A stretch of DNA of 64,000 bases from an uncultured Lachnospiraceae bacterium (GTDB lineage: Bacteria; Bacillota; Clostridia; Lachnospirales; Lachnospiraceae). This document shows, one piece after another, positions 21,168 to 35,270 of the stretch. A model generated the notes under the pieces. The model searched no databases. It was given only the letters and a program-made list of their open reading frames with translations, and had not been told where the DNA came from. How positions within the stretch are numbered: position 1 is the stretch's first letter; every line of letters begins with the position of its first letter. The stretch lies in the NCBI GenBank assembly GCA_947245585.1, contig CAMXPV010000007.1, forward strand, positions 1 through 64,000. Reading direction: 5' to 3'. Position numbers and translations under genes: made by a program.

Positions 21168-21187
21168 TTTATCTTATTCCTCCATAT

Positions 21188-21343
21188 CTATTCATTAAAA
21201 AGAGCCTTAACAGCTAAGATAGTATAGCATAGTAAGGCCCAAAAGTAAATTATGGGATTTTTGCTGAAGATATCCTGAACTAAAAAACACAACAGAACGC
21301 TGCCCAACATGAAATAGATTATCCGTAATCTAATTGTACTCCA
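21188..21343 (-). pseudogene. Membrane-protein tail relic
   Basis: The frame ending at 21188 encodes about 45 residues that look like a real protein end: a hydrophobic segment (YFMLGSVLLCFLVQDIF), then NPIIYFWALLCYTILAVKALFNE. There is no start or ribosome-binding site for this part alone. The ending resembles the last two helices of polysaccharide polymerase/ligase-type membrane proteins. It directly follows the stop of the frameshifted gene at 21330-22873. It could be a recombination remnant or a chance frame. Confidence 0.3.
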
Positions 21344-22873
21344 AATTGGAAAAATTGTAGTCCGATCCGTAGACATACAAATCTTCAATCTTTGTCTCCA
21401 ACCGTATCTCTTCCGGATGTAACACCAAAAATTGATCGAATGCAGCCTTATCTGTTTCCGACACAACATATGCGGTTCTCTGCCGATATGGCACATTGGG
21501 CACATACCATTCCTCACTGCTCAGCCATCTACATATATTCATTGTTTTAAAAGAAGCCACAGCCGCGCCACGGACTTCACCTCCTGACAAAATGGTTATC
21601 ATATTGCCCTTATCAAAGCTTGCATACGCTATTTCATAATCATTTTCTTTCAAATAGCGGCACACCTCATATTCTGTGGAAGGAGACGGTTCCTCACTGC
21701 GCAGAATCGGCAGATAAATCTCACATATATTGGAAAATAGCAAAAAGCATACCATTGTGACGATAACCATTTGAAAAAACCAATGTTTCTTCCTGACAGA
21801 ATGTACAAAACGGACAACTCCAAAAGCCACGAGCGGCAAAATGACAAAATAATATCTGGAGGAAGTTTCTGTCGTTGTGAACGCCACTGCCATTATTGAA
21901 GTGCCAAGTGACATCCACAGCAGAACATTCGCCCAATCAAACAGTTCCGCCCCCTGAATTTTAAAATGCGAAGCAGGCAGCCAGTCAATACTCCTATTGC
22001 AATCAGTAGAAAAAAAAGCAGTATGCCGCATCGTATATCACTGATTTCCACAATCCCTAAAGCTTCAAACACCTCCGGCAATACCGTTTTCCACAGTTTT
22101 CCGAAACCTTTCCTAATATTTCTGGAAACCCTCTGTCCGATAGAGTATGGCGTAAAAGTCCCGGCACACCCTGCAAGCAGTAATAGCGCGCACCACCCCA
22201 CAATATCACCATCTCTCATTTTCCATTTTTTTGAATACCACAGATAAATTTGTCTTGTTATCTCTGTCACAAACATCGGCACATTGAGCACTAAAAGCCC
22301 CCGCACTCCCTGCATTCCGATAAGAAAGGTAAAGATGATAAAAAGTGCCTGCCAGACTCTATGAACACGCACACCGCCAAGAAGTCTTACATATATACCC
22401 AAGGTCAAAAACAGCAGAATCACATGGATCGCATAGTAGGCGCCAAACAGATAAAACAGTTCCAGCGTAACAAAATGATTGGACAGAATCATGCACAACA
22501 GTACAAACATAAATTTCTCTTCCCGCTCAAATGAAAACTGAGAGATAAAGAAATAAAGGCTTCCCAAAACACCAAACGTCAAAACACTGCACGCACAGCC
22601 CATGGCAAACGACATATCCCCAAATATACCATAGAATAACGCTGCCAAATTGGCCGAGGCAAGAATTCTAAATTCCGTAGAGGGATACCATGATCTCGGG
22701 AACCGCTCGCCGCTCTCCCATATGAGCCGGGCAAGTACCGCCTCCGAAGCAATATCCGCATTCATTTTATAGCAATAGTGAAACAGATTTGTGTATACAA
22801 TCAGTCCTGTCACCATAAGGATAGCTGCGAACAGAAAACCTTCACCGATTTTTCTCCTTTTCCTCCATATCAT
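21330..22873 (-). pseudogene. Polytopic membrane protein, frameshifted in a G tract
   Basis: Two overlapping minus-strand frames, 21893-22873 and 21330-22031, are halves of one protein. Adding a single G to the G5 tract at 21950-21954 joins ...GCLLRILKFRG to AELFDWANVLLWM and restores a 514-residue protein, with total length divisible by three. The product has about ten membrane segments (FLFAAILMVTGLIVYTN, ILLFLTLGIYVRLL, ILLFFLLIAIGVLTGCLL and others) and a soluble C-terminal ~110 residues. The topology resembles membrane glycosyltransferases of the GT-C type, but no family is certain. The ATG at 22873 has GGAGGAATTGTG upstream. A promoter with paired operators precedes it. Confidence 0.6.
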
Positions 22874-22993
22874 CACAATTCCTCCATCTGTAAAAGGCCT
22901 TCCTGTTCGACAGCTTATAAACCAGAAAAATACAGACACCCATCAGACGTTCTTTTTGCTTCTTTCTCCTCAATAACTCCAATTTTTCTCAAT

Positions 22994-23012
22994 TGACATT
23001 CAGTGAATGTCA
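22994..23012. promoter_or_regulatory. Operator O1: TGACA-N9-TGTCA, perfect palindrome
   Basis: tgacattcagtgaatgtca is a perfect 19-base palindrome. It starts about 11 bases downstream of the minus-strand -10 box, so it covers the start of the transcript toward the membrane protein gene. The same half-sites and spacing recur at 23047-23065. Confidence 0.7.
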
Positions 23013-23023
23013 TTTTCCCATTG

Positions 23024-23052
23024 ATTGTATCATATAGTGAAACAAATGACAA
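23024..23052 (-). promoter_or_regulatory. Promoter of the frameshifted membrane protein gene
   Basis: TTGTCA (23047-23052) and TACAAT (23024-23029) on the minus strand have a 17-base spacer. The -35 box overlaps operator O2, and O1 lies just past the predicted start site, a classic repression layout. Confidence 0.65.
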
Positions 23053-23065
23053 GCAGTAGGTGTCA
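23047..23065. promoter_or_regulatory. Operator O2: TGACA-N9-TGTCA
   Basis: tgacaagcagtaggtgtca shares the half-sites and 9-base gap of O1, with an unrelated middle. It overlaps the -35 box of the minus-strand promoter and is 53 bases from O1. The nearby XRE regulator (23177-23425) is the natural candidate ligand. Confidence 0.65.
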
Positions 23066-23176
23066 TATAGGGCACGCTTAGAATATTGAAAATCTCTTTT
23101 CTTTATCTGTCTGCGCGTTTCTGCATAAGAAAAATTTTGTGGGAAAAGTTCATGTTAGAAGGGCGATAATATTACT

Positions 23177-23425
23177 ATGTATAAGAATAGAGCAGACTCA
23201 GGGAAAAATAACATATCCGGCAGCAACATCGCGCGTATCCGGAAGGAACTGTCCCCAAAAGTATCTCAACGACTTTTAGCGGATAAAATGCAATTGGAAG
23301 GAATCGAACTAGATAAAAACGCAATTCAGCGCATTGAAAGTGGTGCCAGATTCATTACTGATATCGAGTTAAAAACCTTTGCCAAAGTCCTTGACGTAAG
23401 CTATGAAGAACTGCTCGCGGAATGA
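23177..23425 (+). CDS. XRE-family helix-turn-helix regulator
   Basis: An 82-aa DNA-binding protein with one Cro/CI-type domain filling most of its length (NIARIRKELSPKVSQRLLADK... NAIQRIESGARFITDIELKTFAKVLDVSYEELL). It is one of the few + strand genes and is divergent from the membrane protein gene whose promoter is bracketed by two identical-type operators, so it probably represses that promoter and perhaps its own. The ribosome-binding site (AAGGG) is rather distant from the ATG, so the exact start is less certain. No ligand domain is present. Confidence 0.8.
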   Translation: MYKNRADSGKNNISGSNIARIRKELSPKVSQRLLADKMQLEGIELDKNAIQRIESGARFITDIELKTFAKVLDVSYEELLAE

Positions 23426-23727
23426 TTACGGCAGAAATTATCAACAACATATTTCTATCTAAATACAAAAAAGGAAGCCCCAACGACTTCCTAGCTCTGC
23501 TTCATCACAACCTAACAGTTTCTCCTCTGTTTGTAAAATTGCCTATCAGTGAACAAAAATTTAAATTTCCAAACTGTTCTCCTGCAAAAGAAAATCAAAA
23601 ATACTCATCGTAACGATACCATTCGCGCAGCAAGCGCTTTCAAATATCGTTCTCTTTGAAACTCCATAAAGCCTCCGCAATTGAAATTTATGGGTCATTG
23701 CGCCCTTCTTTTTCAACATTATACATT
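23426..23727. other. Intergenic region without a supported gene
   Basis: About 300 AT-rich bases lie between the XRE gene and the Imm26-like gene, which converge. A 63-codon frame on the + strand starts inside the XRE stop (ATGA), but its protein has no recognisable features. I see no strong hairpin with a U-tract, and no tRNA-like sequence. Confidence 0.5.
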
Positions 23728-24834
23728 TTACCTTCTCATCTGCTTTAATACATACTCTAGTTCCTTTTCATAAGCAGGATTGCGCAGATCGCGATCCCAT
23801 TCCGTTTTCGGTTTTTGTCTCCAATAAGGCGCGTTTGATTCTTGTTTGATACATTCTTCTGCAACCGCCTTATTCAGGTAAAGCGTCCACCCAATACAGT
23901 TGTTTCTAAAACTTCCCTTCACGGGCACATTTCCCTCAGATGGAATTTCACGATACTCTCTTCCCCTGCAATAACAGATTTTATTCCTGCCATGCGTATC
24001 ATACATAATAGGAAAATCAATCTCTTTCTGATTTTCCGGAAGAGATGCGTTCCCGATGATTTCATATTCTCCGTAATAAAAACAGTTATCCATAAGATAT
24101 TCAGACGGAAAGCTTTTAAGTTTTAGCAATTCTTCCATATCCACATTCGGATTCTCCGTCACAATATGGTAAACAGAAACGCAAAGCGGCTTCCCCATCA
24201 AGATATCCAAAAACTTTCCTCCGCCTTTTATAAACTGACGCACATCAAACAAAATCCGTCCGTAGCCATAACTCCTGCGGTCATACTTAAAACGGAAGAA
24301 ATCACCTTCCCTATATTTACAATGCCTTCTTTTTGCGTGTGCAAATGCCTGTATTTCAGCCAGATCTTCAGGGCTTGTATCTGTAATCCATTTGTCGAGA
24401 AAACTTTGAAATTCCTCCTCATTCATATAGGGAATGCCTGCAAATTTTGAGGAGTAATATGTTTGCTGCGTCGTGTAATTCGCAATACGGACATATCCGC
24501 GAAGTTCCTTCCCGCCTCCAAATTCAAGATACATACCATACGGATTACAGCGTTTCATATTCTCATCAGTCAAACGCTTCGGCTTACCTCTATCGGTAAG
24601 AGGCGCAATCATCGTTCTGTTATCCTGCGTTTTCAGTTTATAGGAGTTTTCAAGAAAACTCCCGTCGTTATTTAACCAAATCACCTTTCTGAGTACGTCG
24701 CCGTCAAAAAACAGAACATCTTTCCCTGTAGAAAGCTCCGGATTACGACTATTATTGGGAATTTCCATGCGCTCCCATGAAGGGTCGATAAGCTCTAGCC
24801 CCAGATATTCTCGCTGTTCATTTGTTAACTCCAT
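23728..24834 (-). CDS. Imm26-like immunity protein
   Basis: A 368-aa cytoplasmic protein. Around residues 175-190 it contains GDFFRFKYDRRSYGYGRILFD, closely resembling the start of the Imm26 immunity domain, in which a G-D-x-F strand precedes a YGYGRIL strand. The N-terminal ~170 residues (SSKFAGIPYMNEEEFQSFLD and others) and the tryptophan-rich C-terminus (NCIGWTLYLNKAVAEECI) are unassigned. ATG at 24834 has AAGGA 8 bases upstream and is 13 bases after the next immunity-like gene; a longer frame to 24891 would run into that gene. Imm26 members neutralise nuclease toxins in polymorphic toxin systems. The cognate toxin may be the broken gene upstream. Confidence 0.6.
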   Translation of the reverse strand: MELTNEQREYLGLELIDPSWERMEIPNNSRNPELSTGKDVLFFDGDVLRKVIWLNNDGSFLENSYKLKTQDNRTMIAPLTDRGKPKRLTDENMKRCNPYGMYLEFGGGKELRGYVRIANYTTQQTYYSSKFAGIPYMNEEEFQSFLDKWITDTSPEDLAEIQAFAHAKRRHCKYREGDFFRFKYDRRSYGYGRILFDVRQFIKGGGKFLDILMGKPLCVSVYHIVTENPNVDMEELLKLKSFPSEYLMDNCFYYGEYEIIGNASLPENQKEIDFPIMYDTHGRNKICYCRGREYREIPSEGNVPVKGSFRNNCIGWTLYLNKAVAEECIKQESNAPYWRQKPKTEWDRDLRNPAYEKELEYVLKQMRR

Positions 24835-24847
24835 GTGCTCATCCTTC

Positions 24848-25177
24848 TTATAAATATTTTTCAAAAAATCCACGACAGACCCATTTCTCAATGCAGGCCA
24901 CTATTTCCTTTTTTGATCTTGTTGAAACTTGTTCCAAAGGATTATCCCAATCAAAATTTTTCACAAGCATCAATAGATAGCTTCCGTCGATTTCATAACT
25001 TGGATACCAACCCAAATCAATAATCAACGTTTCACTCATATGGCGTAATCGTAATAAATCTTCATGCAGCTCAAACGAATCATCCATACCATGGATATCC
25101 ATATCATACTCTGTAAAATTGTTATATTCTATTTGCCATCCCGCTTGCATCCGCAATGGCTGTAATTCATAATACAA
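24848..25177 (-). CDS. Small immunity-like protein (109 aa)
   Basis: A compact acidic protein with several aromatic residues (GWQIEYNNFTEYD, LIIDLGWYPSYEIDGSYLLMLV) and a late WDNPLEQVSTRSKKEIVACIEKW. This pattern recurs in short Firmicutes proteins found beside polymorphic toxins, though I cannot give it a family number. The start is a TTG at 25177 preceded by AAGGAGG at 8 bases. It lies 15 bases downstream of the toxin-like pseudogene and 13 bases upstream of the Imm26-like gene, so all three form one transcript from the promoter at 25849-25877. Confidence 0.55.
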   Translation of the reverse strand: MYYELQPLRMQAGWQIEYNNFTEYDMDIHGMDDSFELHEDLLRLRHMSETLIIDLGWYPSYEIDGSYLLMLVKNFDWDNPLEQVSTRSKKEIVACIEKWVCRGFFEKYL

Positions 25178-25192
25178 CTGCGTACCTCCTTA

Positions 25193-25676
25193 CTATAAAA
25201 ATACATCTTCCATATACAGCATCCCAAAATTATCATAAATCCTTATGCATTTTACTTTCATTGTCCTCTGATTTCGAATATACAAATCCGTTAAATCATG
25301 AAAAAAAGATTCGGCATACTTTTTGCCATTTCCATCTTCCGCAATACACAAGTGATTATATCCCTGTTTCTTTTTCTCAAACAAAACATATTTTGCTTTT
25401 AAATTTGACCCAATCACTTCTTTTAATAATATTTTCCGTAAGCAGTTCTTGCTTTTTAATTTTTGAAATTATATACTTTGCACCAATTACAAGATTATTC
25501 TTATCATTAAATTGACGTATGACCGGTATGTCAATCAATTTATGTAATCCCAATAAATGCGGAAAATCTGTCTGTTTCAATTTAAAACTAATAACGGAAT
25601 CATCCTCAAATATGTACTCCATACGAAAATTTGCAACTAATTTATATTCATTGAATTTATCTAATAGTTGATTCAA
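25193..25676 (-). pseudogene. PBECR4-like nuclease domain gene, frameshifted
   Basis: Two frames join into one protein. The first (from a TTG at 25676, GGAGG 5 bases upstream) gives NEYKLVANFRMEYIFEDD and KQTDFPHLLGLHKLIDIPVI, the look of the PBECR4 group of BECR-fold nucleases. The second gives IGSNLKAKYVLFEKKKQGYN and ends CIRIYDNFGMLYMEDVFL. The frame changes near the ATTATTAAAAGAAG run around 25425-25435: the second frame there reads ILLKEVIGS, continuing naturally. As written, the first frame runs into a stop at 25377. It may be an inactivated toxin retained with its immunity genes, or a sequencing error. Confidence 0.55.
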
Positions 25677-25692
25677 ACAATCCTCCATATAC

Positions 25693-25842
25693 ATCAAAAG
25701 CTCTTGACCGCAGCCAAGAGCTTTCTGAAATTCTATAAATCGGCTCTTTTTTCTTCAGCTTGCGCCTATTCGGTGTAAGTGAACCGTAACTTACGGAAGA
25801 ACCTCCACTTATGAATCCGAAAAATCATAAGCTTCTTTGGTT
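25693..25842 (-). ncRNA. Candidate small RNA or attenuator leader
   Basis: A promoter (25849-25877) is followed by ~150 bases without an obvious gene. These hold three hairpins on the minus strand: CTTATGA/TCATAAG (25808-25831), overlapping repeats around CCGTAA-C-TTACGG and GTAAGT/ACTTAC (25775-25796), and a perfect 10-bp terminator-like stem (25697-25706 with 25715-25724) followed by TTTTG. The toxin-like gene begins right after. This could be a free small RNA or a regulated leader that ends transcription before the toxin. I do not recognise an Rfam-type family. Confidence 0.4.
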
Positions 25843-25848
25843 AATTTT

Positions 25849-25877
25849 ATTATATGCAATAACTGACATAAGATCAA
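25849..25877 (-). promoter_or_regulatory. Promoter upstream of the toxin/immunity genes
   Basis: TTGATC (25872-25877) and a perfect TATAAT (25849-25854) on the minus strand have a 17-base spacer. It lies between the retron-like operon and the toxin remnant and would drive the structured leader at 25693-25842. Confidence 0.65.
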
Positions 25878-25977
25878 TATCTGTCACAGAAATATTTTAA
25901 ATTTCTATTTTTTCTTTTGTTTTATCCAATCCTTGTTTTCTGGCTCCATGCATTGTGACACCTATCTAACGTATTTC

Positions 25978-26865
25978 TTAACACCTTTGTGCAGAAGTCA
26001 TATCGCAGTGTATTTCTTTTGACTTCCATTCATACTGCATCCCTTCCGGGAAATTGAAAAATCCCGGTTGTTTTCCATGATTTCTTCCCGCACTGTAATA
26101 AACATCCAAAATCCCTTTCAACAAAAACTGAAGTCCGAGATGCTCCTCCTTGTCCCGATGAATATACATCTGGTACTCCGCCCGCTCATCACTCCTTTTA
26201 TCCCTTAACCCCGTTCCCGGTTTATGACACTTATGTATAGTCCATTCCGACAAATTACCGACAAAACATGGTAAAGCCTCGTAACAGACCGGTTTTTTCA
26301 CAAAGGCATCATTGATTTTCCTTTCTATCATATTGGCACGTGTCATATCCTTTTTGCCAAGCTCGTCTTCCATACCCACTAAAGCAAGAAACGGCCCCTT
26401 TCTCCCTTTTAGCGAACATAATTCTGCCGCCCGCTTCAATGCTCCAATTTCTCCGACAATCTCTTTTGTACGTAAAGTCTTCTTAACCGATATTATACCA
26501 AGCACTCCCTCCGGCAAAACCACCGCCGTGTCTTCAAATCTTTGATAAACCGGATAATTTTGCACATCATATACAATCAAATCCAACTGGGAAGAATGTT
26601 GATCCTCATCATTTTTTCTTGCTTTTCCAGACATACCGCTTTCCACTCCCGAACGCAGAATGAAACCCGTTAAAATCTCAACGCCCTCTGGCAGAAATTT
26701 CTTTAAAGTCTCTTTCAAAATACTTTCAATATAGCGTCCGTCCTCACCTCTGTGCGCCGCCCCTTTACCCTTAGATGCCGGAATCAACGTTTCAAATTGT
26801 TTGTATTTTTCCAAAATCGACTTCATTTCATATGACCAATAATCTTCAATGCGCTTACCACCCAT
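25978..26865 (-). CDS. DUF6602-like protein, possible nuclease-fold accessory
   Basis: A 295-aa soluble protein resembling the DUF6602 group. Visible are an AAHRGEDGRYIESILKETL helix (residues ~36-54), a KFLPEGVEILTGFILR segment, SSQLDLIVYD (about 91-100), then PEGVLGIISVKKTL. In a PD-(D/E)xK-type reading the aspartate of LDLIVYD and the lysine of SVK are kept, but the acidic residue before the lysine is serine, so activity is doubtful. It starts 5 bases after the reverse transcriptase gene and is the last gene of that operon. Its role as effector, effector partner or regulator of a retron-like system is inferred from this linkage. Confidence 0.6.
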   Translation of the reverse strand: MGGKRIEDYWSYEMKSILEKYKQFETLIPASKGKGAAHRGEDGRYIESILKETLKKFLPEGVEILTGFILRSGVESGMSGKARKNDEDQHSSQLDLIVYDVQNYPVYQRFEDTAVVLPEGVLGIISVKKTLRTKEIVGEIGALKRAAELCSLKGRKGPFLALVGMEDELGKKDMTRANMIERKINDAFVKKPVCYEALPCFVGNLSEWTIHKCHKPGTGLRDKRSDERAEYQMYIHRDKEEHLGLQFLLKGILDVYYSAGRNHGKQPGFFNFPEGMQYEWKSKEIHCDMTSAQRC

Positions 26866-26870
26866 ATGTA

Positions 26871-28013
26871 TTACTCCTCTATCGTTTTTGACTCATATTT
26901 CTCCAATTCCTTCAGCAACAGCTCGATGTGCTCTAAAAAGCGGCGAATCTTCTTATCTACGCTGTCCTTGCCGTCCCCCGTCTGCAATACGGCAATCAGC
27001 CACGAACGATAACCGCAAAGGTATTGAATCAATTTTGCTACCGAATCAAAAATTATTTTTTCAGAATGATTTTGCAAATCAAGGCTGCTTAAATCCTGCA
27101 ATATCTTTTTCAAAACATTCTCCCTGTCCGGCGCCGTAGGAGACGGAAAAAGATTACGATCTATCCTGTATTGTTCTGAACTCTTATCACGAAAAAAATA
27201 GAGAATCCGACGAATATTTTGCAGCTTTTTTCTGGATAAATGCAGCTTATTATCCAAAACATAGCCGTTCAGCACTACTTTTTCTCTTCCCATGACTGTT
27301 TTCTGCTTATTAATCAGGAACCCGTTTTCCTTTAAAATTCTTCTTATCATACGAAGAAAATTCAGGTTCTCTTCGAAATCGAAGCAATTAGAGCTAAAGA
27401 GCAGATCGTCGGCATATCGGGTATAACAAATGACCATCCTTTCTCCCTGTTTCAATTCCGAATCGTAATTTTGCCTGCGCCCTTCTTCAATCGTCTGGCA
27501 ATATTTTAAAATTCTTTGATCGACCCTACGGAAAAGAACATTGGAAAGCACCGGCGACGTACAGATTCCCTGCGGCAATTTGTCATGCAGTGTACACAAT
27601 TGTATCACGTCAAAACGTGCAAGATCATTTTCGATATGTTCCTGTAAAACAGTATCTAGCAATTCTAGGGAAAAAGAGGGAAAGAAATTTTCGATATCCA
27701 GTCTCATAAAAAAAGATTTTCCCAGATGCGGTCCCAAAAAAGTTTGATAATTTTTTCCTTTTACAAAGCCGTGTGCCGGTGTAGCAACAGGAAGCTTACA
27801 CAAAAAATTCTGATACAAGTTTTTCTGTACCCATACCAGTTTTTTGCCTTCATCATTTTTCACCGGCGTATGAATCTCCCTCATTCCATTCTTTTTAGGT
27901 ATTTCAAAAGATTCATATAACGAGTCCCTGTTTCTTATAAGCGACTCAATATTCTCCTGCCGGCTTTTCACTATCACATTAAGGAAATATTGATAATCAT
28001 ATATTTTCATCAT
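26871..28013 (-). CDS. Retron-like reverse transcriptase
   Basis: A 380-aa reverse transcriptase. Motif A is RLDIENFFPSF (Asp106), motif B-like QGICTSPVLSN (148-158), and the catalytic YADD is at 200-203 (YTRYADDLLFSS). AHGFVKGKN (80-88) is as in retron RTs, but the following NAxxH motif is only partly kept (TFLGPH, His96), and the thumb VTG motif reads LNG (248-250), followed by a basic KLHLSRKKLQNIRR segment that may bind the RNA. There is no maturase, integrase or endonuclease domain, arguing against a group II intron. It starts with tandem ATGs and a weak ribosome-binding site, 16 bases after the a2 arm of the predicted RNA. Confidence 0.85.
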   Translation of the reverse strand: MMKIYDYQYFLNVIVKSRQENIESLIRNRDSLYESFEIPKKNGMREIHTPVKNDEGKKLVWVQKNLYQNFLCKLPVATPAHGFVKGKNYQTFLGPHLGKSFFMRLDIENFFPSFSLELLDTVLQEHIENDLARFDVIQLCTLHDKLPQGICTSPVLSNVLFRRVDQRILKYCQTIEEGRRQNYDSELKQGERMVICYTRYADDLLFSSNCFDFEENLNFLRMIRRILKENGFLINKQKTVMGREKVVLNGYVLDNKLHLSRKKLQNIRRILYFFRDKSSEQYRIDRNLFPSPTAPDRENVLKKILQDLSSLDLQNHSEKIIFDSVAKLIQYLCGYRSWLIAVLQTGDGKDSVDKKIRRFLEHIELLLKELEKYESKTIEE

Positions 28014-28028
28014 TTGTTACCAAAAAAA

Positions 28029-28208
28029 GAGCAAGCACACCTTGAAATTTCCATCAGGGAATTATTCAGTCCGAAGGATCATTCTAATCCATCGATCGAT
28101 AAAAATTATTTATCTCTCAAAGCTACCCATATCCCATGGATTACCGATATTTCCATATCGTCTCATGAGTTTGTGATATAACGTTACACACAAAATTACT
28201 GCTTGCTC
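28029..28208 (-). ncRNA. Candidate retron msr-msd RNA
   Basis: The segment between the ATPase and RT genes is bounded by a perfect 9-bp inverted repeat: GAGCAAGCA (28200-28208, minus strand) and TGCTTGCTC (28029-28037). A G follows the first arm at once, the position of the branching guanosine in retrons. Inside are TTTGTG/CACAAA (28170-28175 with 28189-28194), a 6-bp stem with a GGAA loop (28145-28160), GATAAA/TTTATC (28098-28114), and a longer imperfect stem near 28044-28072. The 5' arm overlaps the last ATPase codons, so the RNA would be cut from or made on the operon transcript. No cDNA evidence is available. Confidence 0.6.
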
Positions 28209-30232
28209 AATGTTAGTTTACCACTATTTTTCCCTATTGTCATCTCTAATTTGTCTAATAAAGCATATAATTCTACAAAATCCCCTTCTACCTGCCTTCT
28301 GATATATTCCCTATGATTACCCTGTTCTATCCACTTTCGGAATTGTTGAAAGTTATCTATATCCGCAGATTCATCTAGCCATTTCACCAGTTTCAAAAAA
28401 TAATACTCCAACCACTTACTCACCCATCCGCTTGTCTTTTTTACTAGGTTCATATTTTCCAAAAATTCATCATAAATAGCCGCATTCTCCTCCCCAATTT
28501 TCTTTTTTGAAAGCAGAAAATCACTTTTTCCACAAAAAATCAGCCGCAAATAATTTAACTGCTGATTCCTTTCTTTCTTTAAAAAAGGGAACTCCTCCAA
28601 CATCTGGGCAAAATCAAAAGGATATCTATTTTCCCTTGTAAAATCAATAAAACAATCCAGATTTTTATTAGTGATAAGCGCCCCTTCCACCGTATTACGC
28701 CATAAATGCACGCAATAATTTTCATAATAATCTATTACTAGCTCTAATAAAATATTGAAATTTCCATCTTCGCAACTGAAAAAAGGATACTGAAAAAAGA
28801 AGCTACATTTTTCACACATGCTCTTAATACGTTTTCTAAGATACAGCGTCTCTCTTCTTTTCTTCCCATAATGATAAATCTCTTTTTCAATCGGATAATC
28901 TTCTTTGAGTTCCTTAAAAACAAATCTATTTTGACTGTCTTTTTTCACCAATACCTTGTCCATATCCATAACACAAAAACCAGGCACCTGATAATTCCTT
29001 TTCCCCGGCGCAGTCAGATTATAGATGACATGATTGCTCATACCACTGACAATCTCTACTTCTTTTAACCGAGGAAAAACCAGCTTGAGATATTTATTTC
29101 TGAATAACTCTAACTCGGTTTCTCCCTCAACGTTTAAAACCATTTTGGAGAAGCAGCTGTTCGTATAGGCCTCCGTGATAACTGCCCGCTCTCTGGCCTC
29201 CTCTTTTTCCAACGAACGCACACGCTTTATTTTCGTATATTGTCCGCTTAACACGATATGATAGATGTTATAATTTTCTTCCTCAGACTGTAGCAATGCT
29301 TTCACACATCTTGACGAATGCGTCGCTATAAAAAACTGCAAATTATCTGAAATCTCAAAAATTTTATCGAGCAGCGAATCGATCAGCAAATAATGAAGAC
29401 TGATCTCCGGTTCATCAAGAACAATAATCGGCTCTTTTAATTTATAGCGCTTCAACATATATAATATATCCATCAAAAAAACCGTATAATTATACGCATT
29501 GGTTCCATTCGAACATTCCTTCAGACTGCGCTCCCCATATTGGAACATCTGTCCACCCACCGCAATTTTCGCAATTACTTCCCCAAGCTGTCTTGATGTC
29601 AATTTTTTTACATTGATACTTTTTTCTTCTAACAATCTGCCCAAATGTTCCAAACGGCCGTTTGTGGATGCATAGTCGTCTTTGATTTTCTCCTTTATAT
29701 CGTTTTGCAGTCTTTCAGAATCCTCATTTCGCAGCTTTACCAGATCCCCGATCAGTTCCCACAGATTTCTCCAGTCAGTAAGCATAATCTGACGGGAATC
29801 CACAACATAGATTGGAAAGAGAAACGAAACGATCTGACGGATATTATAGCTCTGGTTCCACATAGTCCGTTTTCCTTTTCTCTTTATCATTTCCAAAACA
29901 ACTTCATCATTCTTTGCAATCGCTAATATTTTCCGATAGTAATTCTCATATTCATTAGCCTCAGCATTCTGGTTATGATGCACCTTTTTCAAGATATCCT
30001 TCAAATCATAAGTAATCCGGATACACACTTCGTTCCGCAGCGGATTGTTAGCATCAAAAATATTCTCTTCCCTCTGCTCTGTCGTCAGACTTGTATAAAA
30101 CAGATTCAGTGCCGAAAGAATATTAGATTTCCCGCTTCCATTTGCCCCTATAAAAGCCGTTATCTGCTCCGCCTCTAACTTCATATCATCTATGGAACGA
30201 TATCCCCTTATTTCCAGTCTTTTTATTGCCAT
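28196..30232 (-). CDS. OLD-like ATPase with TOPRIM nuclease domain
   Basis: A 678-aa protein of the OLD class (overcoming lysogenization defect). It has an N-terminal ABC/SMC-type ATPase with Walker A GANGSGKS (29-36), Walker B IIVLDEPE (~270-277) and a FFIATHSSRC switch, then a TOPRIM domain with VEGETE (368-373) and DMDK (423-426). The remaining ~230 residues are lysine/tyrosine rich and unassigned. OLD proteins are ATP-dependent nucleases found in phage-defence systems, including Gabija and some retrons. It is the first gene of the operon ATPase, RNA, RT, DUF6602-like. Only 53 bases separate it from the upstream gene and no clear promoter is visible there. Confidence 0.82.
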   Translation of the reverse strand: MAIKRLEIRGYRSIDDMKLEAEQITAFIGANGSGKSNILSALNLFYTSLTTEQREENIFDANNPLRNEVCIRITYDLKDILKKVHHNQNAEANEYENYYRKILAIAKNDEVVLEMIKRKGKRTMWNQSYNIRQIVSFLFPIYVVDSRQIMLTDWRNLWELIGDLVKLRNEDSERLQNDIKEKIKDDYASTNGRLEHLGRLLEEKSINVKKLTSRQLGEVIAKIAVGGQMFQYGERSLKECSNGTNAYNYTVFLMDILYMLKRYKLKEPIIVLDEPEISLHYLLIDSLLDKIFEISDNLQFFIATHSSRCVKALLQSEEENYNIYHIVLSGQYTKIKRVRSLEKEEARERAVITEAYTNSCFSKMVLNVEGETELELFRNKYLKLVFPRLKEVEIVSGMSNHVIYNLTAPGKRNYQVPGFCVMDMDKVLVKKDSQNRFVFKELKEDYPIEKEIYHYGKKRRETLYLRKRIKSMCEKCSFFFQYPFFSCEDGNFNILLELVIDYYENYCVHLWRNTVEGALITNKNLDCFIDFTRENRYPFDFAQMLEEFPFLKKERNQQLNYLRLIFCGKSDFLLSKKKIGEENAAIYDEFLENMNLVKKTSGWVSKWLEYYFLKLVKWLDESADIDNFQQFRKWIEQGNHREYIRRQVEGDFVELYALLDKLEMTIGKNSGKLTLSKQ

Positions 30233-30285
30233 GTGTACCTATCACCCACCTTCTTCTTTTGCAATAATTACGGCACTTACTGCTT

Positions 30286-31878
30286 CTACAACCCATAACT
30301 TCCTCCCACTCCCGCATCCTCCCACGAGGTAACGTCCCGCTCAGCCTTTCGCCAGAAGTCCTTAACGTTGTTGTCCCAAATCACATTTTCATAATAAAAG
30401 CAGCTTCCAAACGTATCATAATGATAATTAATCGTCACAATATCATTTTCCCAATGAATGATCTCTCCGACCGTATACCCTTTCGCTTCGATCTCCTCTA
30501 TGATATCCGTTTCACTAAGCTTTGCAAACGCCTCCCCGGAAATGATCTCTCCCCCGTATGCCTCCAACTGGTCACTCTCTGTATTGTAATGATAAAAATA
30601 GGGTTTCCATGTATGCCCAAGCCAAATGTCTAGATCAAGTTCCACATCTATGTCGTTCTCCCAATCATACGCATCCACCCAGACCTCAAACTCGTCCCCG
30701 CCTCGGTACGACACCTCTCCGGTTTGCAATAAACCGCTTTCTTCTACCGGCTCTCCATCTCGTACCGTCCATAATTCGCTGACGTTTACCGTTGTATACT
30801 GATCCGTATCAAAGAAGAGATATTTTCTACCACTTGAAAATTCCATCTTTCCGTCTATCATGCGGTAACCGTAGTCGTTATCCCGCACTAGCTCACAGCG
30901 GTCCGCACTGGCAAAGTAGAGCCTGCCCTCATAAACGCCGCCAGACACCCAGTCATATTCGGAATCCATCCTGTCCCCGACAAGCATAAACGCTTCATAA
31001 CTACCGTCGTCATCATAATCGTCATAATCAAGCAATAAAATATCGCTCTCCTGCGCCCCTGCTTTGAGCAGCATGTTTTGCTTCAGCACTTCCTCCTGTG
31101 TCAAAGTCAGGCTTTCCAGTTCTTCCTGTAAAGCCTCCCGTATATTGGTTCTCGGCAACATCCGGCAGTCACTGTATCGTATACTCTTACATCCGTCTGT
31201 GCTCCATTTCTCTAAAATCTCTCGGTATTGTTCCTCTGACACTTCTTTCTCGTCTACCCAATAGGTAAATTCTTCTCCCATAATCCCCTCTGAACACATA
31301 TCGTAGCTTTGCAAGACTACTGCCTGATTTTCCTCAAGCTGATATACCCAGTTGTGATAATTACCCTGTGTTGCATAGTTATCCATTATGAGCCCTTCCT
31401 TTTCCCGATAGCTCATTTCGCCCCACTCGCCATATTCTCCAAGCAAGACCACCTCTCCATCCTGAAACCGATAAACAAACGCACCCTGTCCGTGCGCCCA
31501 TCCCTCTGTCAAGGCCAATTCCGGAACATCGTCATTATCCAAATAAAATAAGGCAAATTGGAGTCCCCGCTCATCCGTCCTTTGCGGCTCGTATTCCTCC
31601 AAAAACGCGGCGTACCCATCCAATGCCGCCGCCTGCTCCGTATCCTGATCGTCTTCCGCGTCTGCGTCTGTCAGTTCCGCACCTCGCCCGCTTTCCGCGT
31701 CTGCTTCTGTCAGTTCCGCCGTTTCCAAGCTCTCATCATCTTCCGGCACGGGTTTTGCCGCCTTGTCCTCTATCCGCCTCTCTGCCTGAAAAGCGTCCAT
31801 ATTTGTCTGATCCACACCGCAGACTGCAAACAGGACGCAGATCACTATCACTGTACTCAGTATCCGTCTTGTTTTCAT
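30286..31878 (-). CDS. Exported protein, copy 1 of a paralogous pair
   Basis: A 530-aa protein with an N-terminal export signal (RRILSTVIVICVLFAVCG). A cysteine follows the hydrophobic core, but the preceding FAV is a poor lipobox. An acidic, repetitive linker (ELTEADAESGRGAELTDADA, residues ~54-85) precedes a YAAFLEEYEP helix and an ALFYLDNDDVPELAL segment, typical of secreted Lachnospiraceae proteins of unknown role. The C-terminus ends DAGVGGSYGL. Copy 2 at 32742-34328 matches along its whole length, and a toxin-antitoxin pair lies between them. No enzymatic motif is visible. Confidence 0.65.
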   Translation of the reverse strand: MKTRRILSTVIVICVLFAVCGVDQTNMDAFQAERRIEDKAAKPVPEDDESLETAELTEADAESGRGAELTDADAEDDQDTEQAAALDGYAAFLEEYEPQRTDERGLQFALFYLDNDDVPELALTEGWAHGQGAFVYRFQDGEVVLLGEYGEWGEMSYREKEGLIMDNYATQGNYHNWVYQLEENQAVVLQSYDMCSEGIMGEEFTYWVDEKEVSEEQYREILEKWSTDGCKSIRYSDCRMLPRTNIREALQEELESLTLTQEEVLKQNMLLKAGAQESDILLLDYDDYDDDGSYEAFMLVGDRMDSEYDWVSGGVYEGRLYFASADRCELVRDNDYGYRMIDGKMEFSSGRKYLFFDTDQYTTVNVSELWTVRDGEPVEESGLLQTGEVSYRGGDEFEVWVDAYDWENDIDVELDLDIWLGHTWKPYFYHYNTESDQLEAYGGEIISGEAFAKLSETDIIEEIEAKGYTVGEIIHWENDIVTINYHYDTFGSCFYYENVIWDNNVKDFWRKAERDVTSWEDAGVGGSYGL

Positions 31879-31918
31879 AACATATATGCCTCTGATTCTT
31901 TTGAAACGGTCTTATTCT

Positions 31919-32284
31919 TTATTGGCTGTTTCTTTTTTCCATAGGAACTACTGCTAACGTCTTTCCCAAGGGAGCCAATACCTTTAAGATCGTATCTAAC
32001 TGCGGGCTTGTAATCCCTTTTTCCATCCTTGCAATAACAGGCTGTTTTACCCCGCTTAACTCTTCCAATTTTTTTTGGCTTATCCCCTTTTCCTGTCTTG
32101 CCTTTATCAATTCTCCAATAATAGACACCCGCAGTTCACTCTCCGCTATTTCATCTGGCGTAAGAATATTTTCCATAAATTCCAGAACATTTCCGCCGAC
32201 AGCTTCCGATCCCCGTTCGTTCAAATCAGCCAGATTCTCCTTCGCCTGTATGATAGCTTGTGAATATTCTTTATTCATTCTCAT
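31919..32284 (-). CDS. HigA-type antitoxin, XRE family
   Basis: A 121-aa protein with a C-terminal helix-turn-helix ([34 protein letters not shown], residues ~54-87) and an N-terminal helical part that likely wraps the toxin. Its ATG overlaps the end of the toxin gene by 14 bases, so translation is coupled, and the toxin-first order is typical of HigBA modules. It should neutralise the RelE-fold partner and repress the promoter at 32663-32691. The gene is complete. Confidence 0.8.
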
Positions 32285-32636
32285 GATGTTTCCTCCTTCT
32301 ATAATCGGTTAAATTTCGTTTCGCCCGCTCTATCTCCTTCTGCGGCGTTTTTTGTGTCCGCTTCATAAAAACATGTAATAGGACAAAGCCGCTGCCGTCC
32401 CATGCCGCAAATAAGACTCTGTCTCTCAATGGCCGTAATTCCCATATCTCTCCGTCAATATGTTTTATATACGGCTCCCCAGCCCTCGTTCCATATTCAC
32501 TAAGTGTTTTTACATAATCCATGATTTTGTTCAGCTTGATCCGGCTGTCTTTATCCTTCTTTGCGGCCAGTCCTGCTATGTACTCTTTTACCGGCTCTTT
32601 TCCGTTCTTATCTTTATAAAAATAAATCTCGTACAA
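32271..32636 (-). CDS. HigB/RelE-type toxin (phage Gp49-like)
   Basis: A 121-aa protein of the Gp49-like/HigB group of ribosome-dependent or RelE-fold mRNA interferases. Family segments are [16 protein letters not shown] at the start, [35 protein letters not shown] and [20 protein letters not shown], containing the basic and aromatic residues expected in the active groove. The start is a TTG at 32636 with AGGAGG 9 bases upstream. It is the first gene of a two-gene toxin-antitoxin operon placed between two paralogous exported-protein genes. Confidence 0.82.
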
Positions 32637-32662
32637 ATTTAGTTTCCTCCTGCTATAAATAA

Positions 32663-32691
32663 ATTATACCTTAAAGTTATTAAAAGATCAA
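32663..32691 (-). promoter_or_regulatory. Promoter of the toxin-antitoxin operon
   Basis: TTGATC (32686-32691) and a perfect TATAAT (32663-32668) on the minus strand have a 17-base spacer. The -35 box lies within an arm of the hairpin at 32682-32715. Copies of AGTTATT/AATAACT in and beside that hairpin could be antitoxin binding sites. Confidence 0.65.
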
Positions 32692-32715
32692 TAACTCAAA
32701 AGTTATTGATCTTTT
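32682..32715. terminator. 15-bp perfect hairpin after exported-protein copy 2
   Basis: Bases 32682-32696 pair perfectly with 32701-32715 around a CAAA loop. Both strands end the stem in TTTT, so it can terminate transcription either way. It lies 26 bases downstream of the stop of the gene at 32742-34328. Confidence 0.75.
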
Positions 32716-32741
32716 CTATGTTGAAGTAAGATTTACTGATT

Positions 32742-34328
32742 TTACAGCCCGTAGCTTCCTCCCACTCCCGCACTCTCCCAAGAAGACGCCTTTCTCCCGT
32801 CCTCTCGCCAGAAATCCTTGGCGTTATTATCCCAAATCACATTATCGTAAATATATTCTACCTCCGAATCGTCCTCGCCCCAAAAAGATACATAATGATA
32901 GTTGATCGTCACAATACCGTTTTCCCAATAAATGATCTCCCCCACCGTATACCCTTTTGCTTCGATCTCCGCTATGATAGTCGTTTCACTGAGTTCGGAA
33001 AATTTCTCCCTGGAAATGAGTTCCCCCGCATAGGCCTCAAGCTGATCACGGCTGTCGTTGTAATGATAGAAATAAGGTTTCCATGTATGCCCTGTCCACA
33101 TGTCATCGCCTTTGCCCAAGCCATCTTTAAGGCAATAATTATCATACGCGTCCACCCAAATTTCAAACTCGTCCCCGCCGCGGTATGACACCTCCCCATG
33201 CTGTAAAAGCCTGCCTTCCTCTACCGGCTTCCCGTCCCTCACTGTCCAAACTTCACTGATATTTGCCGTAAAGACGTAGTCCATATCAAAAAACAGATAC
33301 TTTCTTGATCCGAAATCCATTTTCCCGTCCATGGCACGATAACCGCCATGGGTATTCAGCCCAAGTGTGCAGCCGTCCGCTCCCGCAAAGCAAAGCGTCT
33401 CTTCGTTATAATATACATTTCCGTCCTCACCCTCAAAGATATTCCCGACAATCATAAACGCCTCATATCTGCCGTCCCCGTCATAATCATCATAATCAAA
33501 CAATAAAATGTTGTCTTCATGCGCGCCTGTTGCAAGCAGCAAATTTTCCTTCAGCGCTTCCTTCTGTGTCGAAATCACATTTTCCAGTTCTTCCTGCAAT
33601 TCCTCCCGTATCCTGGTTTCCGAAAGTGTCCGGCACCTATCATAAGTAATCTCTTTGTAATCTTCCTCATACCATTCATTTTGAACCTTTTGGTATTGCT
33701 CCCACGACACCTCTTTTCCATCTACCATATAGACAGAGCCAAGCCATTCCCCTTCCGTTTCCGAAGTTTCAGCCCTTTTACTAAAGCTTTGCAAAAGCGT
33801 AACCTGATTGCCCTCAATCTGATATACATAATCATAACCATCGCCGAAGCTGTCGTAAGAATCTAATATGATTCCCTCCCTTTCCCGGTAAAACAGTGTG
33901 CCGTACTGCCCGTAGGAACCGACAGGGACTGTCCCTCCCTCTTCAAACCGATAGACAAAAGCATCGCATAAATGCGCATCTCCATTCATCACGACCAACT
34001 CCGGAACCTCATCACCGTCCAGAAATATAAGCGTAAATACGGACGTTTGCTCACCGACGCTCTCTTTTTGCTCCGCCGCATACTCCCTCAAAAACGCAGC
34101 ATACCCATCCAGTACCTCCGACTGTTCCACGCTCTGAACGCTTTCCGTGCCTGCGTCTGTCAGTCCCGCCTCTTCCACTCTTACATCGTCTTCCGGCACG
34201 GATTTTGCCGCCGTGTCTTCTATCCGTCTCTTTAACTGAAAAGCGTCCATATCTGCCTGATCCGCACCACGGACAGCAAACAGGACACAGATCACTACAG
34301 CAATACTCAATATCCGTTCTTTTTTCAT
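32742..34328 (-). CDS. Exported protein, copy 2 of a paralogous pair
   Basis: A 528-aa homologue of the protein at 30286-31878. Shared landmarks are the RILS...VVICVLFAV signal, MDAFQ...RRIEDTAAKSVPEDD, LDGYAAFLREYA, the repeated LLFDYDDYDGDGRYEAFMIVG, EIEAKGYTVGEIIYWENGIV and the identical GVGGSYGL end. The cysteine after the signal core in copy 1 is arginine here (FAVRG), so this copy cannot be lipid-anchored and is presumably secreted. ATG at 34328 has GGAG 8 bases upstream and lies 17 bases after the rsgA stop. The function is unknown. Confidence 0.65.
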   Translation of the reverse strand: MKKERILSIAVVICVLFAVRGADQADMDAFQLKRRIEDTAAKSVPEDDVRVEEAGLTDAGTESVQSVEQSEVLDGYAAFLREYAAEQKESVGEQTSVFTLIFLDGDEVPELVVMNGDAHLCDAFVYRFEEGGTVPVGSYGQYGTLFYREREGIILDSYDSFGDGYDYVYQIEGNQVTLLQSFSKRAETSETEGEWLGSVYMVDGKEVSWEQYQKVQNEWYEEDYKEITYDRCRTLSETRIREELQEELENVISTQKEALKENLLLATGAHEDNILLFDYDDYDGDGRYEAFMIVGNIFEGEDGNVYYNEETLCFAGADGCTLGLNTHGGYRAMDGKMDFGSRKYLFFDMDYVFTANISEVWTVRDGKPVEEGRLLQHGEVSYRGGDEFEIWVDAYDNYCLKDGLGKGDDMWTGHTWKPYFYHYNDSRDQLEAYAGELISREKFSELSETTIIAEIEAKGYTVGEIIYWENGIVTINYHYVSFWGEDDSEVEYIYDNVIWDNNAKDFWREDGRKASSWESAGVGGSYGL

Positions 34329-34345
34329 GGAATGTTCTCCGGCCT

Positions 34346-35224
34346 TCAATACCGTTTCGTCTCCTGTAGTTCCCGATACAAAATCTTATAATTCTCATAC
34401 CGCACAGCGCTGATCTTTCCCGCCTCCACGGCCTCCTTCACTCCACAGGAAGGCTCGCTCAGATGAGCGCAGCCGCGGAATTTGCAAAAGGGTTCGTATT
34501 CCCGAAACTCGGGATAATAGCCGCCAAGTTCCTCCTTGGTAATATCAAGGATATCCAGAGAAGTAAATCCAGGCGTGTCTACGATGTAAGTCTCTCCCCC
34601 CAGTGCAATCATCTCCGAATGTCTGGTGGTATGCCTGCCCCTTTCAATCTTTTGGCTGATCTCCCCTGTTTCCATGTGTGTGTCCGGCGAAAGCTGATTG
34701 ATCAGAGAAGACTTCCCCACGCCGCTTGGCCCTGCCAGTGTAGTGGTTTTCCCTGCAAGCACATCCCTTACCTGATCTAAGCCGCGGTTCTCCAACGCGC
34801 TTATAAATAACACATGATATCCGCAAGTCTCATAGGCTGTCCGCAAATCTTCCTTCTCCTGTGGGGAAGCAATATCTTCCTTGTTAAAGCATATAATCGT
34901 CGGAAGTTTTTGCTGCTCCATGCGGATCAGAAACCGGTCTAACAGATTGAAATTAGGATTGGGTTTCACGATTGCAAACAGAACAAGCGCCTGATCCACA
35001 TTAGCCACCGCAGGCCGGATCAGCGCGCTTTTTCTCGGCAGAATCCGACGAATATTGCCGAGTTTGTCTGCCTCATCCAGTACGTCAAGCTCCACGTTAT
35101 CCCCCACAAGCGGCTTGACGCCCTCTTTTCTGAATATTCCCTTTGCCTTGCACTCATAGATGCCGTGCCCCTCCACGTGCACATAGTAGAAGCCGGCGAT
35201 CCCTTTCATAATCTTCCCATACAT
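34346..35224 (-). CDS. rsgA: Ribosome small subunit-dependent GTPase RsgA
   Basis: A circularly permuted GTPase of 292 aa that checks late 30S assembly. Order: an OB-fold (GKIMKGIAGFYYVHVEG), then G4 FNKED, G1 GPSGVGKSSLINQL, G3 VDTPGF, and a C-terminal zinc knuckle (CKFRGCAHLSEPSCGVKEAV). I chose ATG at 35224 (MYGKIMKGIAGFYYV), matching homologues. An ATG at 35263 would add 13 residues encoded by a dispersed hairpin repeat, not by conserved protein. It follows prkC, as in many Firmicutes (prpC-prkC-rsgA). Confidence 0.94.
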   Translation of the reverse strand: MYGKIMKGIAGFYYVHVEGHGIYECKAKGIFRKEGVKPLVGDNVELDVLDEADKLGNIRRILPRKSALIRPAVANVDQALVLFAIVKPNPNFNLLDRFLIRMEQQKLPTIICFNKEDIASPQEKEDLRTAYETCGYHVLFISALENRGLDQVRDVLAGKTTTLAGPSGVGKSSLINQLSPDTHMETGEISQKIERGRHTTRHSEMIALGGETYIVDTPGFTSLDILDITKEELGGYYPEFREYEPFCKFRGCAHLSEPSCGVKEAVEAGKISAVRYENYKILYRELQETKRY

Positions 35225-35227
35225 ATA

Positions 35228-35270
35228 TTTCAACCCATGCGGAGAATGCCTGCTTTTGGGCATTCTCCCA
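35228..35270. repeat. Dispersed hairpin repeat, copy 1
   Basis: ggagaatgcc (35241-35250) pairs perfectly with ggcattctcc (35259-35268). The flank tcaacccatgc and the AAAAGC-type loop recur at 40711-40750. It lies between the prkC stop and the rsgA start. Read on the minus strand it encodes MPKSRHSPHGLK, in frame with rsgA. Confidence 0.75.

Follow-up and report, generated by a model that had tools for sequence, protein, structure and literature searches.

A type I-B2 (Eco8-family) retron locus with a fourth gene, probably encoding a second, NucC-fold nuclease

A retron operon with an additional gene

Three open reading frames with their translations occupy positions 25978-30232 of the window (the whole 64,000-nucleotide stretch of uncultured Lachnospiraceae DNA analysed here), all on the minus strand; 182 bases separate the effector gene from the reverse transcriptase (RT) gene, and 5 bases separate the latter from a gene for a DUF6602 protein. 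These positions and the short final spacing agree with the earlier note, which described four elements running in one direction. In the order in which the minus strand is read, the features are:

28196..30232, minus strand: OLD-type ATPase-TOPRIM effector of the Eco8 family, 678 aa (PADLOC, NCBIfam, match to an Eco8 chain)
28200..28208, minus strand: putative a1 arm of the retron RNA, GAGCAAGCA, within the last codons of the effector; a 9-bp perfect complement to 28029-28037, the helix being conserved across the 14 compared loci, with compensatory changes
28199..28199, minus strand: predicted branching guanosine, the base directly 3' of a1; G in 14 of 14 aligned loci
28171..28193, minus strand: putative first msr hairpin (compare RSLa of Eco8), helix 2 of the comparison
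28133..28169, minus strand: putative second msr stem (CTCATG...CATGGG), helix 3 of the comparison
28029..28037, minus strand: putative a2 arm of the retron RNA, TGCTTGCTC, pairing with a1 in the 14-locus comparison
26871..28013, minus strand: retron reverse transcriptase of type I-B, 380 aa, YADD present (PADLOC RT_I-B; solved retron RT chains)
25978..26865, minus strand: fourth gene, encoding an SxK-subfamily DUF6602 protein of 295 aa with the NucC nuclease fold and a predicted permuted site D95 / K128 / E139, S126 replacing the usual Glu (profile, fold, alignment)

Promoter-like sites (17, against 14.0, s.d. 3.5, in shuffles) and terminator-like sites (1 against 2.7) were uninformative.

Domain searches matched the effector to AAA_15 (5.9e-22) and AAA_21 (6.9e-16), the RT to RVT_1 (4.3e-16) and the fourth protein to DUF6602 (5.1e-17). 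Over residues 1-663 the effector is PADLOC ATPase-Toprim_I-B (1.3e-142); it scores 451.6 bits against NCBIfam retron_eff_Eco8 (cut-off 250) and matches the solved Eco8 OLD chain 23or_B (2.9e-26), with G29, N31, G32, G34, K35, D273, E274, P275, E276, E369, D423 and D425 invariant among five aligned sequences, the window's included. At 678 aa it is shorter than the effectors of loci L045 (746) and L047 (739). The top PADLOC model for the RT is RT_I-B (258 bits, 3.2e-77; runner-up RT_III-A, 165.3), as it is for all six relatives scored (L035, L036, L037, L038, L039 and L041), and among solved chains the closest are those of retron RTs (Ec86, 1.4e-19; Eco8, 5.6e-18). None of the NCBIfam RT models reached its cut-off for the window RT, the top one being retron_St85_RT at 160 of 235. 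Kinship with group II introns or DRT enzymes, which the earlier note had said would overturn its retron reading, was examined with the same profiles and is opposed by scores far under the cut-offs (group_II_RT_mat, 34.5 of 300 bits; Drt3a, 34.0 of 200; Drt2, 21.7 of 390; Drt4, 14.1 of 450); its proposal of a retron with an OLD ATPase-TOPRIM effector is backed by the PADLOC I-B models for effector and RT and by retron_eff_Eco8.

The locus combines an RT of the I-B group, an OLD ATPase-TOPRIM effector upstream of noncoding RNA and RT, and, by comparison, a noncoding RNA with an a1/a2 repeat and a priming G; judged by sequence, it is a type I-B2 (Eco8-family) retron plus a fourth gene.

Descriptions of retrons usually list three components (RT, noncoding RNA and a single effector), and a tripartite make-up is usual for type I-B2 but not required for membership. 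The window locus shares with type I-B2 and Retron-Eco8 an OLD ATPase-TOPRIM effector, a noncoding RNA and an RT in the same order, both proteins matching Eco8-family and I-B models, and differs by its extra gene after the RT. We term it a variant because the fourth gene or a remnant is found in 6 of the 16 readable I-B2 loci, which in this respect are not tripartite. Effector-RNA-RT is the published type I-B2 or class 3A OLD layout (PMC10568477), and the Eco8 construct is arranged OLD-ncRNA-RT (PMC12887533); we therefore rejected the effector-first order as a novelty, since the first three parts are already published in that order (PMC10568477, PMC12887533). Of the four-part layout that had seemed unfamiliar from the sequence, what stands as new is the last part, a gene not found in the searched literature and present, intact or as a remnant, in six loci. 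The literature searched gave no mention of DUF6602, with or without retrons; it may already name such a gene as NucC, and the Mestre 2020 retron classification lies outside the comparison.

The retron RNA in comparison

A structured segment had been proposed between the ATPase and RT genes; folding of the single sequence did not bear it out, whereas covariation across 14 loci did. Folded alone, the window segment gave z = -0.99, with 34 of 200 shuffles folding equally well, and its 9-bp a1/a2 stem was matched by 51 of 200 shuffles; single-sequence folding, not being significant, was dropped as proof of an RNA. Pairing of the a1/a2 helix reaches 97.0% across the 14 loci; both sides change in 10 of its 12 pairs, and the other 2 are invariant. 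Helix 2, the first msr hairpin, has 70.1% of cells paired and both-side changes in 5 of 6 pairs; the values for helix 3, the second msr stem, are 81.0% and 3 of 6. Over the whole named structure, 87.0% of cells are paired; shuffles give 67.4%, with none of 500 reaching the observed value, and sliding the structure gives 31.5-46.6%. The base directly after a1 (column 21 of alignment A7) is G in all 14 aligned loci, in the context A-G-N-A/G-A; from the role of its counterpart in known retrons, we infer that it is the branching guanosine.

When 16 regions were scanned for stems, one of the a1/a2 type ranked best in 12, and another stem came first in L035, L045, L046 and L047. For nine of the 16 regions no more than 2 of 200 shuffles gave a stem as good as the best one; the count was 8 for L036, 12 for L161 and at least 26 for the window, L035, L045, L046 and L047; in L045 and L047 the scan found no a1/a2 stem above chance. 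Rfam returned zero matches at curated thresholds for the window and six related loci, and at E up to 10 it gave a sub-threshold 'drum' match and three others within 25700-30500. It is thus comparison, rather than the window by itself, that supports the a1/a2 arms and the invariant G of a retron RNA, and the 14-locus alignment offers a starting model for this I-B2 retron RNA, unrecognised by Rfam.

A permuted active site predicted in a NucC fold

NucC is the DNase of CBASS and of type III CRISPR. Profile and fold comparison give the DUF6602 protein the NucC nuclease fold, the AlphaFold2 model, weak overall (mean pLDDT 54.6), being used for fold only; at 295 aa the protein is longer than the solved NucC chains (241-256 aa), and the three proteins of the operon had no cyclase or Cas10 model among their best family matches. 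E47, D95, E119 and K128 are present in all 23 intact DUF6602 proteins aligned (the relic at L043, with its active-site region missing, was not included). The catalytic D and E-x-K of NucC (D73, E104, K106) are nevertheless incomplete, with Ser at the E104 position in 8/8 intact subfamily members: S126 and E139 occur together in these eight, and neither in any of 15 other DUF6602 proteins. E139 lies 11 residues past the catalytic Lys in all eight, giving the spacing K-x10-E. Compared with the cA3-bound NucC structures in the PDB, therefore, E104 is exchanged for Ser126 and Glu139 is an addition.

CCGG-family enzymes work with permuted PD...K...D/E sites, an example being K165...D175 of BsaWI (PMC4652773, PMC6344858); most of these enzymes have K-x12-13-E, against x9 in BsaWI (PMC4652773). 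What the DUF6602 subfamily appears to share with Cfr10I, NgoMIV, Bse634I and BsaWI is an acidic ligand past the Lys rather than two before it; its K-x10-E spacing differs from theirs, and its nearest fold is NucC, not that of CCGG-family enzymes. On these alignments the SxK-subfamily site resembles the permuted active site of the Cfr10I/NgoMIV restriction enzymes, and the fourth protein is probably an active, second nuclease of the retron. The subfamily provides a testable activity for DUF6602 and a clear candidate for active-site migration inside the NucC fold.

The Ser in place of the ExK Glu (NucC E104) in all eight intact members could instead mark a catalytically dead NucC-like subunit with a structural, inhibitory or sensing part in the retron complex. 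In Eco8, msDNA holds together a 4:4:4 assembly (PMC12887533, PMC13158370), so that an added structural subunit is conceivable. We regard such a subunit as unlikely, if worth serious attention: the remaining metal and catalytic positions are kept in 23/23 proteins, the extra Glu found in 8/8 of the subfamily and 0/15 of the others would be needless in a dead enzyme, and the subfamily is also found outside retrons.

Inheritance of the fourth gene and a possible two-nuclease retron

The effector scan of genome contigs gave at least 77 loci, of which 13 were used (L035-L047, E 4e-36 or better), the other 64 listed matching over parts only at 1e-6 or weaker; further I-B2 loci may exist beyond those listed. 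L033 lies within L046 and L032 within L161, each pair making one count; L004, at a contig end, was left out of fourth-gene scoring, and the DUF6602 search gave no match in its genome (G105). Among the matches listed, the DUF6602 gene or a remnant occurs in 6 of the 16 I-B2 loci readable downstream and is absent from the other 10, where 2.0-7.5 kb were read past the RT; the gene is therefore not needed for the retron as such. A DUF6602 gene of the same subfamily directly follows the RT in the window, in L035 and L036 (1-base gap) and in L037 (overlap); in genome G310 it lies 15 bases past part of an RT at the end of contig C12, and in L043 a remnant is fused to a broken effector.

The effector and DUF6602 trees contain the same two groups with the same inner branching, (G310,(window,L043)) and (L037,(L035,L036)). 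The fourth-gene label takes 2 changes rather than 1 on the effector tree, whose deep node is without resolution, and the retron-linked rows of the DUF6602 tree form one side of a weakly supported branch (61/52). The other five effectors of DUF6602-bearing loci are 36-47% identical to the window's. The fourth gene is co-inherited with the effector and kept within its clade. Among 397 family genomes, 3 match the effector at 1e-100 or better, 16 have a DUF6602 gene and 2 have both, at a single locus in the window and at two contig ends fitting one locus in G310; 39 of the 397 match the effector at E 0.001, the 36 beyond the strong ones at 2.5e-7 or weaker. Order-level searches found the effector model in 3 of 392 genomes and the DUF6602 subfamily in 2 of 392.

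Our best explanation, held with modest confidence, is that a type I-B2 retron gained a fourth part, a nuclease with the NucC fold from a distinct DUF6602 subfamily, and kept it within its clade. The RT would make msDNA, which, as in Eco8, would keep the OLD TOPRIM nuclease inert in an RT-msDNA-OLD complex until a phage trigger, in Eco8 a single-stranded DNA-binding protein, released it. The DUF6602 protein would act as a metal-dependent DNase with a permuted PD...K...E site. In the least certain step, that same complex might restrain it, or the two might be activated together. With a nuclease-like gene stably added to a retron, one viral alarm may therefore control two different nucleases. If so, a conserved second nuclease-fold gene in one clade would imply that a further enzyme can come under the msDNA lock or assist it, and the four-gene operon is a natural system for asking how.

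Defence genes cluster, and outside retrons the same subfamily is found in G131 beside a SEC-C gene adjoining QatA/QatB, in G694 near a TIR gene, where it overlaps a gene that matches HNH weakly, and, apparently solitary, on a Rhizobium plasmid. An independent anti-phage nuclease, merely co-located with the retron in an operon or defence island and sharing no mechanism with it, would fit such company, but we think it distinctly improbable: the gap to the RT is 1-15 bases or an overlap, the gene is present (once as a relic) in 6/6 members of two retron groups, the paired trees branch alike while neighbours beyond the four parts differ (among L035, L036 and L037, judged by eye), and the only two of the 397 genomes with both genes have them at one locus or at contig ends consistent with one. 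An ordinary type I-B2 retron beside a chance neighbour, merely another member of the known type, accords with the 10 of 16 readable loci lacking the gene among the matches listed but is scarcely credible when the same position is kept in six loci despite so divergent effectors.

A broader generalization of the favoured two-nuclease reading is offered tentatively: a class of four-component retrons whose single RT-msDNA sensor would preside over two unlike DNases, an OLD TOPRIM enzyme and a permuted-site NucC fold, the latter being a mobile accessory shared by retron, Qat/SEC-C and TIR/HNH-like loci. Recurrently acquired nuclease-protease pairs offer a likeness (PMC12799240), with one nuclease module joined to several unrelated defence systems; theirs, however, is a metallo-beta-lactamase nuclease with a protease partner, and the three proteins encoded here show no protease in their best family matches. 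Viral contigs held no relative of the DUF6602 subfamily and, in the effector scan, 30 partial matches at E 1e-7 or weaker; phage records held no DUF6602 match. Among plasmids, 12 records match DUF6602, the best being H1, and 120 match the RT, each under 60% identity.

An I-B2 retron with a DUF6602 gene

All four elements proposed for this operon were found on the minus strand, in one direction:

28196-30232, minus strand: effector, an Eco8-family OLD ATPase-TOPRIM protein
28200-28208, minus strand: a1 arm of the retron RNA, within the effector's last codons
28029-28037, minus strand: a2 arm, the complement of a1
26871-28013, minus strand: reverse transcriptase (RT), best model RT_I-B
25978-26865, minus strand: DUF6602 gene

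Matches of the effector to PADLOC ATPase-Toprim_I-B (1.3e-142), NCBIfam retron_eff_Eco8 (451.6 bits, cut-off 250) and, among PDB chains, the Eco8 OLD protein (2.9e-26) agree in identifying it as the OLD ATPase-TOPRIM of a retron. We placed the RT from family-model scores and nearest solved chains: in PADLOC it scored 258 bits with RT_I-B vs 165.3 with the next group, and the closest structures in PDB were retron RT chains. None of the NCBIfam RT models reached its own cut-off; the group II intron and DRT models among them scored far below theirs, so that by model scores the RT stays with the retrons, as the earlier note had it.

That note did not recognise the layout from described retron types. 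Its effector-RNA-RT portion, however, follows published order: the available text of PMC10568477 puts OLD upstream of the ncRNA and RT in type I-B2 (class 3A OLD), that of PMC12887533 describes an Eco8 expression construct arranged OLD-ncRNA-RT, and every I-B locus we examined that shows both genes has the same order. The first three parts are therefore an ordinary I-B2 retron. The retron itself is already known; its four-part form is, as far as we could see, new. The term DUF6602 was not found in the searchable literature, where co-mentions of retrons and NucC exist and may hide the same link.

The retron RNA

The structured segment proposed between ATPase and RT is borne out by comparison across loci and not by the window's sequence taken singly: folding the 190-base gap gave nothing special (z -0.99), and in a locus-by-locus stem scan, where the best stem was equalled in at most 2 of 200 shuffles for only 9 of 16 regions, the window's own stem was not above chance. 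At 14 loci, of which the ten named belong to Bacillota or an unplaced bacterium, corresponding positions in the gap carry a long-range inverted repeat; an invariant G stands directly after its a1 arm, and another precedes a2. The a1/a2 helix is 97.0% paired on the 14-sequence alignment, whose ends are in register via the repeat itself because sequences were cut at the arms beforehand; both sides change in 10 of its 12 pairs, the remaining two being invariant. Two msr-like helices are 70.1% and 81.0% paired. Shuffled and slid alignment controls fell far below these values, in a comparison whose cells are not independent because some rows are close kin (L039, L040 and L044; L004 and L042). Two gammaproteobacterial, Eco8-like loci, L045 and L047, had no outstanding stem (equalled in 32 and 26 of 200 shuffles) and were excluded from the alignment. 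Conservation of the msd template region across the aligned loci was too low to delimit the DNA part.

Distribution and inheritance of the fourth gene

A second accessory protein was predicted after the RT, and the DUF6602 gene lies there, 5 bases on. Among the matches listed, 6 of 16 I-B2 loci with sequence past the RT (L004 is outside this count) carry the gene or a remnant. It is intact in the window and in loci L035 and L036 (gaps of 1 base each) and L037 (overlapping the RT); the genes that follow the four parts downstream differ among these last three, judged by eye. In genome G310 the genes are split over two contig ends: C12 finishes with DUF6602 and part of the RT, and the low end of C11 bears the second RT part and the effector, whose frame is interrupted by stops. 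Given this split, the contigs probably meet there. The remnant is L043 (6001-8051, a Hespellia genome bin), where the effector breaks near residue 518 and runs into the last half of a DUF6602 gene, RNA and RT being missing; this is either a four-part retron in decay or a misjoin in the assembly. No DUF6602 match was found within 2.0-7.5 kb past the RT at the other ten loci (L038-L042, L044-L047 and L161 of genome G600).

In a 17-row effector tree, the window groups with L043 and G310, and L035 with L036 and L037 (each 100/100); the DUF6602 tree repeats the inner branching (95/95 and 100/100), showing co-inheritance of the two genes. Both groups join the gene-less loci at one unresolved node, which is compatible with a single gain followed by losses and also with two gains.

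The window's DUF6602 protein has a NucC fold, with Ser for the usual Glu two residues before Lys (SxK subfamily). In Eco8, according to the available text of PMC12887533 and PMC13158370, RT, msDNA and OLD assemble into a 4:4:4 complex triggered by phage SSB. By analogy, msDNA would hold OLD inactive and the NucC-like protein would be a second nuclease controlled together with it; possibly the fourth protein is instead an independent nuclease, or a dead, structural subunit.

DUF6602 occurs in 16 of 397 genomes of the window's family, at 18 places, three of them SxK by phmmer (the window, G310 and genome G131). Eleven of the 18 have, by eye, Cas-like neighbours resembling Cas6, Cas10 or others (L115-L123, L125 and L128); PADLOC, run on L119 (426-3270) only, named NucC, Cas10 and Cas6. 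These Cas-adjacent proteins look NucC-type, with Q or E two before Lys. In G131, the SxK gene is downstream of a SEC-C-motif gene, itself beside QatA and QatB. At L167 (7455-10333, genome G694) it overlaps a gene with a weak, sub-cut-off HNH_5 match (0.085) that follows a TIR gene (PADLOC TIR-TM, 2.3e-116), possibly a separate defence unit; on a Rhizobium megaplasmid it is apparently solitary. The SxK gene appears to be a defence-locus accessory module that a retron operon took up.

Genomic setting

Flanking the operon are two genes named by eye, one ychF-like (20070-21167) and the other rsgA-like (34346-35263). The interval between them is variable: it spans about 13 kb here (21168-34345) vs about 34 kb between relatives of these genes in G370, a genome of the same genus in which neither the ORF list nor an effector search found the retron. 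DNA-level sharing with G370 between the flanking genes is limited to a toxin-antitoxin-like stretch (31926-32716).

Just downstream of the DUF6602 gene, 25738-25842 (minus strand) weakly matches Rfam 'drum' (27.6 bits against a gathering score of 43; E 0.031). The stretch 23728-25697, perhaps the remains of a polymorphic toxin locus, holds an Imm26 immunity-protein-like gene (7e-19) along with a short ORF whose PBECR4 nuclease match is below threshold (25.1 bits, cut-off 27). The genes at 30286-31878 (530 aa) and 32742-34349 (535 aa) resemble each other and run in the retron's direction, with a toxin-antitoxin-like pair, recognised by eye, between them (31919-32636).
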